DNA of 64,000 nucleotides from Robiginitalea aurantiaca (GTDB lineage Bacteria; Bacteroidota; Bacteroidia; Flavobacteriales; Flavobacteriaceae). Of the stretch, positions 15,259 through 15,970 are shown piece after piece. The stretch spans positions 1 to 64,000 of the forward strand of contig NZ_JAUDUY010000005.1 in NCBI RefSeq assembly GCF_030380815.1, read 5' to 3'. Under the pieces are notes generated by a model, which was given only the letters and a program-made list of their open reading frames with translations, was not told where the DNA came from and did no database searches. The translations under genes were made by a program, and so were the position numbers. The number at the start of each line of letters is the position of its first letter. Within the stretch, counting starts at the first letter, position 1.

Positions 15259-15303
15259 AGTATTGGTTTTAATAGTGGTTTAAAATTTAAATTCATCTTA
15301 TCA

Positions 15304-15333
15304 GACGATCAGATTAAAGGACAGGTTACGAAA
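15304..15333 (-). promoter_or_regulatory. ECF-type promoter of the DUF6249 gene
   Basis: On the minus strand TTTCGTAACC (15333-15324) is followed after exactly 16 nt by CGTCTGA (starting at 15307). The AAC-type -35 and CGTC -10 elements are typical of ECF sigma factors. The predicted transcript start is near 15296, leaving a leader of about 40 nt before the ATG at 15258. The -35 element is the left arm of the inverted repeat shared with the divergent promoter. Confidence 0.8.
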
Positions 15334-15344
15334 TAGTGCGTTTT

Positions 15345-15374
15345 TTTCGTAACCCCCTGGCACCATATTTCGTC
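15345..15374 (+). promoter_or_regulatory. ECF-type autoregulatory promoter of the sigma factor gene
   Basis: TTTCGTAACC (15345-15354) is followed after exactly 16 nt by CGTCTTA (from 15371). It is identical in its -35 arm and spacing to the divergent promoter. The predicted start lies just before the ATG at 15386, so the sigma mRNA would have almost no leader. This implies positive autoregulation of the sigma gene. Confidence 0.8.
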
Positions 15375-15385
15375 TTATAGCTGAA

Positions 15386-15970
15386 ATGAATGTGAATCCG
15401 GTTTCAGATTCGGAGGTTATCAGCGATGTGCTGGCGGGTAATTCAAGAGCATATGCAGTCTTGATCAGCCGGTATCAGCATATGGTATTTACCCTGGCTG
15501 TACGAATGCTGGGCAATCGGGAATTAGCAGAGGAGACAACACAGGATGTTTTTGTAAAGGTTTACAATTCCCTGGAAAAGTTCAGGGGAGAATCTAAATT
15601 TTCGACCTGGCTCTACAGGGTGGCCTATCACCGAATCCTTGACGCCTCACGTCGCGAAACCCGCCAGACAGGTGATTTTATATCAGGGGGCCTCGATATT
15701 CGATCCCTTGGTACAAATGAAAGCACATGGGACTGCTTGATGACCAAAGAACGCCGGGACATCCTGGTCAGCGTTTTGGCACAATTATCCACGGAGGAGA
15801 ATTCAATTATCAGCCTCTATTACTTACAGGAAATGAGCGTAAAGGAAATTTCCGAAATTATAAATCTCGGGCAATCTGCTGTTAAAGTCAGATTGTTCAG
15901 AGCACGCGAGCACCTGAGATCATTACTTGAGGGTACAACCCAGGGAGCCTTGTTAAAAACGTATATTTAG
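15386..15970 (+). CDS. ECF-subfamily RNA polymerase sigma factor
   Basis: 194 residues. Sigma region 2 (about 20-90) includes MVFTLAVRMLGNRELAEETT and the DVFVKVYNSL/FSTWLYRVAYHRILD core. Region 4 (about 130-185) ends in an HTH (MSVKEISEIINLGQSAVKVR). There is no region 1 or 3, as expected for an ECF factor that redirects RNA polymerase to stress or envelope genes. The promoter directly upstream has ECF-type -35/-10 elements mirrored in front of the divergent DUF6249 gene, so I infer autoregulation. The next gene, 14 nt downstream, is a small membrane protein and the likely regulator of its activity. Confidence 0.95.
   Translation: MNVNPVSDSEVISDVLAGNSRAYAVLISRYQHMVFTLAVRMLGNRELAEETTQDVFVKVYNSLEKFRGESKFSTWLYRVAYHRILDASRRETRQTGDFISGGLDIRSLGTNESTWDCLMTKERRDILVSVLAQLSTEENSIISLYYLQEMSVKEISEIINLGQSAVKVRLFRAREHLRSLLEGTTQGALLKTYI

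Follow-up and report, generated by a model that had tools for sequence, protein, structure and literature searches.

Genes and promoter elements of the locus

The analysed window, a 64-kb stretch from Robiginitalea aurantiaca, contains a gene for an ECF sigma factor on the plus strand, followed by a gene for a small membrane protein, and, divergently on the minus strand, a gene for a membrane protein of the DUF6249 family (Table 1). A preliminary description of this DNA had called the two divergent genes, and Pfam matches above cut-off uphold both calls. The sigma protein also matches TIGR02937 (E 5.9e-32), again above cut-off. It has regions 2 and 4 only and a length near the ~200 aa typical of ECF (group IV) sigma factors. 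Its best NCBIfam ECF models, NF007223 (SigW) among others, score below their cut-offs.

Table 1 Coordinates of the sigma/DUF6249 locus in the window.
Feature	Position	Strand	Details
Divergent target gene, encoding a 116-aa DUF6249 membrane protein with three predicted helices	14908..15258	-	PF19762
-10 CGTC, DUF6249 promoter	15304..15307	-	CGTCTGA to 15301
-35 arm, DUF6249 promoter	15324..15333	-	GGTTACGAAA; core GTAACC 15324-15329
Spacer between the two -35 cores, 19 bp	15330..15348		
-35 arm, sigma-gene promoter	15345..15354	+	TTTCGTAACC; core GTAACC 15349-15354
-10 CGTC, sigma-gene promoter	15371..15374	+	CGTCTTA to 15377; family consensus CGTCwTA
Sigma -10 to ATG, 11 nt	15375..15385	+	predicted near-leaderless mRNA, probable start ~15381-15384
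ECF sigma factor, 194 aa	15386..15970	+	Sigma70_r2 E 3e-18, Sigma70_r4_2 E 5e-13
Putative anti-sigma factor, 128 aa	15985..16371	+	two predicted membrane helices, no Pfam match

Between the divergent genes, GGTTACGAAA and TTTCGTAACC form an inverted repeat whose 10-bp arms match exactly across an 11-bp loop, centred on position 15339. Outward of each arm, exactly 16 nt are followed by CGTCT, at 15303-15307 on the minus strand and 15371-15375 on the plus strand. The arrangement had been described in these terms, and its coordinates, centre and outward spacing on both strands were all verified. The equal distance of the two -10 elements from the centre, to which the preliminary description also drew attention, is real on both sides; it adds no further information, because any divergent pair of promoters with equal spacers for one sigma factor yields it.

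AAC and CGT elements are found in ECF promoters, and autoregulation is usual for ECF sigma factors (PMC3426412). GTAACC-N16-CGTC fits an autoregulatory promoter of this kind, with AAC in the -35 element, CGT in the -10 element and a spacer within 16 ± 1 bp. The pattern TTTCGTAACC-N14-18-CGTCT has two matches in the window and none in 100 shuffles, and TTTCGTAACC-N15-17-CGTC returns only the two promoter sites from the whole 3.46-Mb genome (reversed control, 0).

Two membrane proteins encoded beside the sigma gene

An ORF of matching size lies directly downstream of the sigma gene in 77 of 79 loci from relatives. No Pfam domain above cut-off was found in the downstream protein of 25 relatives. 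An hhalign comparison matches a PSxxFTxxVMxxI stretch, which precedes the membrane helices of the 128-aa protein, to anti-sigma-like proteins encoded in the same position across the class (probability 97.8%). In the AlphaFold model (mean pLDDT 76) the membrane helices are preceded by two short helices at the N-terminus, and the N-terminal three-helix RseA_N-/zf-HC2-like domain that defines class I anti-sigma factors (ASDI) is absent. Some of the class-level homologues have an N-terminal region with sub-cut-off matches to zf-HC2 or RseA_N; this region is missing in the Flavobacteriaceae and in locus L210. The 128-aa protein looks like a putative anti-sigma factor that has lost its class I domain, a conserved candidate missed by domain searches. 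A class I anti-sigma factor is encoded near only 6% of Bacteroidetes ECFs, and other classes have been suggested to dominate (PMC7406223); the 128-aa protein may represent one of these.

The DUF6249 protein matches PF19762 with E 1.5e-13 and 51.1 bits, against a gathering score of 33, and is the only member of the family in this genome. Its model comprises three helices (mean pLDDT 81). Foldseek gave no match to it at E 0.001 or better, and VIA-align 2 found common helical arrangements only, with a best Z of 8.0. The most conserved part, STRNRERLALIEKGADASIF, comes after the first membrane helix and is predicted to be cytoplasmic from the positive-inside rule. The literature searched names DUF6249 only in a plant gene-family study. 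Among the control genomes, those of Caulobacter vibrioides, Bacteroides ihuae and Haloferax volcanii also gave matches to PF19762; the domain reaches far past its pairing with ECF sigma factors.

DUF6249 might be a part of the sensor rather than an output of the sigma factor, with STRNRERLALIEKGADASIF at the inner membrane face and the 128-aa protein together forming a two-part anti-sigma factor. We consider this rather doubtful. If true, it would account for the co-expression and for the loss of the class I domain in Flavobacteriaceae, and would be one answer to the scarcity of class I anti-sigma factors near Bacteroidota ECFs (6%, PMC7406223). Below, DUF6249 is treated as the output. A third member of the module was sought among the flanking genes and rejected: the commonest extra gene, present at 27 of 80 loci, seems to reflect local synteny.

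Conservation of the promoter pair among relatives

We searched 199 Flavobacteriaceae genomes, nearly one per genus, for the sigma protein and inspected the flanks of the 83 best matches, which come from 80 of these genomes. The matching proteins are 33-46% identical to the R. aurantiaca sigma factor. A DUF6249-like gene lies upstream on the opposite strand in 80 of the 83 loci (in L089 past a 1-kb insertion), and both strands carry GTAACC-N16-NGTC or a close variant in 79. The preliminary description had proposed conservation at orthologous sigma/DUF6249 pairs as a check on its reading, and the motif is thus present on both sides of nearly all of them. With sigma factors just 33-46% identical, this conservation is not passive similarity.

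The spacers match on the two sides in every locus with both promoters (N16/N16 in 78, N17/N17 in L091). Exact GTAACC-N16-CGTC occurs on the sigma side in 63 and on the DUF6249 side in 69 of the 79 intergenic regions, in which 300 letter-permuted motifs gave no match. From 78 aligned promoter pairs, the family consensus for both genes is TGTAACC-N16-CGTCwTA; GTAACC is present in all 78, as the motif search itself demanded. The base before GTAACC in the sigma-gene promoter is T in 97% of the 78 aligned promoters and C in R. aurantiaca. Between the cores the DNA of relatives is A+T-rich (84% A+T where this stretch is at most 40 bp), possibly comprising two UP-like elements.

A second sample of 80 named genomes, reached through DUF6249, has both promoters in 76 of 80 loci, and the same locus is present in another species of Robiginitalea (G191). 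In other families of the class the divergent pair is kept, in some cases with matching altered -10 elements (CATC/CATC in L210 and L221). Covariation of the -10 elements between the two sides gives p 1.2e-4 when relatedness is ignored; the independent pairs that the tree offers are too few, and the signal does not survive phylogenetic correction. We regard it as suggestive and not as proof of a single sigma factor. The triad of sigma, downstream and DUF6249 genes is conserved, and the pairing of sigma and DUF6249 with paired promoters recurs in ~80 genera; the perfect mirror does not.

Spacing of the two promoters

In the preliminary description the repeat was a single mirrored cis-element over which two polymerases might compete or cooperate. 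Such a functional mirror, with two holoenzymes on the shared repeat coupling both genes, draws on the short distance between the GTAACC cores: 18-36 bp in 69 of 79 loci and 19 bp here, less than two full polymerase upstream footprints. In the other 10 loci, however, the distance is 45-237 bp, and this wide-gap state arose ~9 times on the sigma tree, each time with both promoters retained. The sigma gene (C1:952473) and the DUF6249 gene (C1:1020383) of G135 are 67 kb apart, each with an intact promoter, and in G016 a ~1-kb insertion separates the genes and DUF6249 keeps its promoter site. Arms that match perfectly over at least 10 bp are found in just 6 of the 76 named loci; the usual length is 7-8 bp. 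The inverted repeat is a by-product, because two divergent -35 elements of one sigma factor must look so. We therefore consider a functional mirror unlikely and abandon the single cis-element for two promoters with free spacing. Competition or interference between polymerases is possible at short gaps such as the 19 bp here, and obligatory cooperation is unlikely.

The probable sigma factor for both promoters

The proposal that the adjacent ECF sigma factor drives its own gene and DUF6249 through both promoters is strongly supported by comparison of sequences, with both promoters in 79 of 83 loci. Genomes with the sigma gene contain 2.51 TGTAACC-N16-CGTC sites each, against 0.54 in genomes without it. 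The motif is at none of the promoters of 12 DUF6249 genes that have no ECF neighbour within the sequence examined around them, all from small-genome Flavobacteriaceae. More distant ECF/DUF6249 pairs have either no motif (L235, L237, L238) or variants of it (L236, with CATC on both sides, and L239).

A different ECF with a similar specificity might recognise these sites, and the promoters might be served mainly by another such sigma factor or by several with overlapping regulons. There are several ECFs per flavobacterium, and in Flavobacterium psychrophilum a CGT-type -10 motif has been reported, along with the suggestion that ECF regulons overlap (PMC9723704). Against this, the motif tracks the sigma clade across genomes, and is absent both beside the DUF6249 genes that lack an ECF neighbour and from the distant pairs without the motif named above, which makes reading by another ECF distinctly improbable. 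Operators usually take the form of an exact inverted repeat flanked by divergent genes, as seen here, but an operator for a dimeric transcription factor, with incidental CGTC matches, is extremely improbable and was rejected, as the half-site distance is not fixed among loci, each half-site has N16-CGTC outward, and one full half persists where the genes have parted.

Extent of the regulon

The motif had been put forward as a signature with which the regulon could be found genome-wide, and it fails in this role. Six other exact GTAACC-N16-CGTC sites occur in the R. aurantiaca genome, all within coding sequences, and the motif is in no excess over the reversed pattern there. Nor do relatives have a clear excess: the 67 that bear the sigma gene average 0.90 sites per genome outside the locus, against 1.76 for the reversed-pattern control (ratio 0.51), and the corresponding ratio in genomes without the sigma gene is 0.43. 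Single relatives (e.g. L094, L095 and L096) have some extra sites upstream of genes, and no recurrent extra target was found among the inspected sites. A genome-wide regulon defined by the motif is thus not supported. With the extra sites here intragenic and no recurring target, the strict-motif regulon seems to be essentially the two promoters of the locus, weaker non-consensus targets being beyond the reach of these strict pattern searches.

Start of the sigma gene and its transcript

In the two samples, 73 of 79 and 72 of 76 loci have the ATG of the sigma gene 9-11 nt downstream of CGTC; for DUF6249 the distance is mostly 40-50 nt. Transcripts from ECF promoters are expected to start 6-9 nt past the -10 element, so the sigma mRNA is predicted to be leaderless or nearly so. 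Leaderless mRNAs are uncommon in this family, accounting for 5.5% in F. psychrophilum (PMC9723704), and 87% of predicted F. johnsoniae leaders are longer than 10 nt (PMC6847099).

Over the first seven codons after the ATG, the A+C content is 74% for sigma, compared with 48% for DUF6249 and 67% for the putative anti-sigma gene (79 loci). The A+C-rich start, at 15386-15410 in the R. aurantiaca sigma gene, resembles ATGACCACCAAC in many relatives. Such early codons may help translation to start on a near-leaderless mRNA. The TAnnTTTG housekeeping -7 box is absent from the intergenic region here and is not above control in relatives; sigma expression therefore probably rests on the sigma factor itself plus leakage.

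A proposed self-amplifying module

The locus very probably comprises two ECF promoters that diverge, act independently and share one specificity, TGTAACC-N16-CGTCwTA, and these would serve the sigma operon and DUF6249 as a self-amplifying module. In the proposed mechanism, a signal would free the sigma factor from the membrane-bound anti-sigma factor. Rightward, the freed sigma factor would then transcribe its own operon, with the gene for the 128-aa putative anti-sigma factor; leftward, it would transcribe DUF6249. Only a few bases would separate the 5' end of the sigma mRNA from its AUG, and the DUF6249 mRNA would have a leader of ~35-40 nt. Positive feedback of the sigma factor on its own synthesis would be restrained by the downstream membrane protein. 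As the strict-motif regulon consists of the two promoters, the module would work as a switch that amplifies itself and has DUF6249 as its single conserved output.

For DUF6249, a family of no known function, the locus thereby supplies a candidate regulator together with a promoter motif that many Bacteroidota genera share, and the role of the family becomes approachable through deletion or induction of a single sigma gene. The locus would also be an example of an ECF sigma factor with a conserved regulon that seems limited to its own locus.

Comparison with known ECF systems

SigW-RsiW of Bacillus subtilis and RpoE-RseA of Escherichia coli are the classical autoregulated operons of an ECF sigma factor and its anti-sigma factor. 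The R. aurantiaca locus resembles them in its AAC-type -35 and CGT-type -10 elements with a spacer of ~16 bp, in its apparent autoregulation and in the membrane protein gene directly downstream. It differs from them on three points: a class I anti-sigma domain is not recognisable in the downstream protein, the strict motif defines a regulon of about two promoters, and the sigma mRNA is predicted to be near-leaderless.

In the ECF41 group (PMC3426412), as here, the conserved neighbour (a COE gene) is the only detected target of the ECF, and promoters with a CGTC -10 element and a 16 ± 1 bp spacer precede both sigma and target. However, the -35 element there is TGTCACA and the target COE, in place of TGTAACC and DUF6249, so that the locus falls outside ECF41. 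Sigma and target are divergent in less than 20% of ECF41 cases, in contrast to nearly all loci here, and ECF41 sigma factors have a fused C-terminal regulatory domain where this locus has a 194-aa sigma factor with a putative membrane anti-sigma factor downstream. The SM6 motif of F. psychrophilum (PMC9723704), from the same family, shares an ECF-type CGT -10 element, and one ECF/anti-sigma operon is among its targets. Its targets also include T9SS genes, and the text of that paper makes no link to DUF6249.

Other arrangements of sigma and DUF6249 genes

In L214 and L217, from other families of the class, DUF6249 and sigma are on one strand, likely as an operon. The same arrangement is seen in L237, L239 and L097, likewise from other lineages or paralogues, and in L097 and L239 a GTAACC-type promoter precedes DUF6249. 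The sigma frame of L234 (G006, 1648-1938) ends after 96 aa, with no sign of damage to either promoter or to the neighbouring genes; this may be a recent pseudogene or an assembly error. Most of the DUF6249 genes that have no ECF neighbour (L222-L233) are followed by a gene for a ~70-aa XRE-type HTH regulator, and this neighbourhood is a second conserved context for the DUF6249 family.
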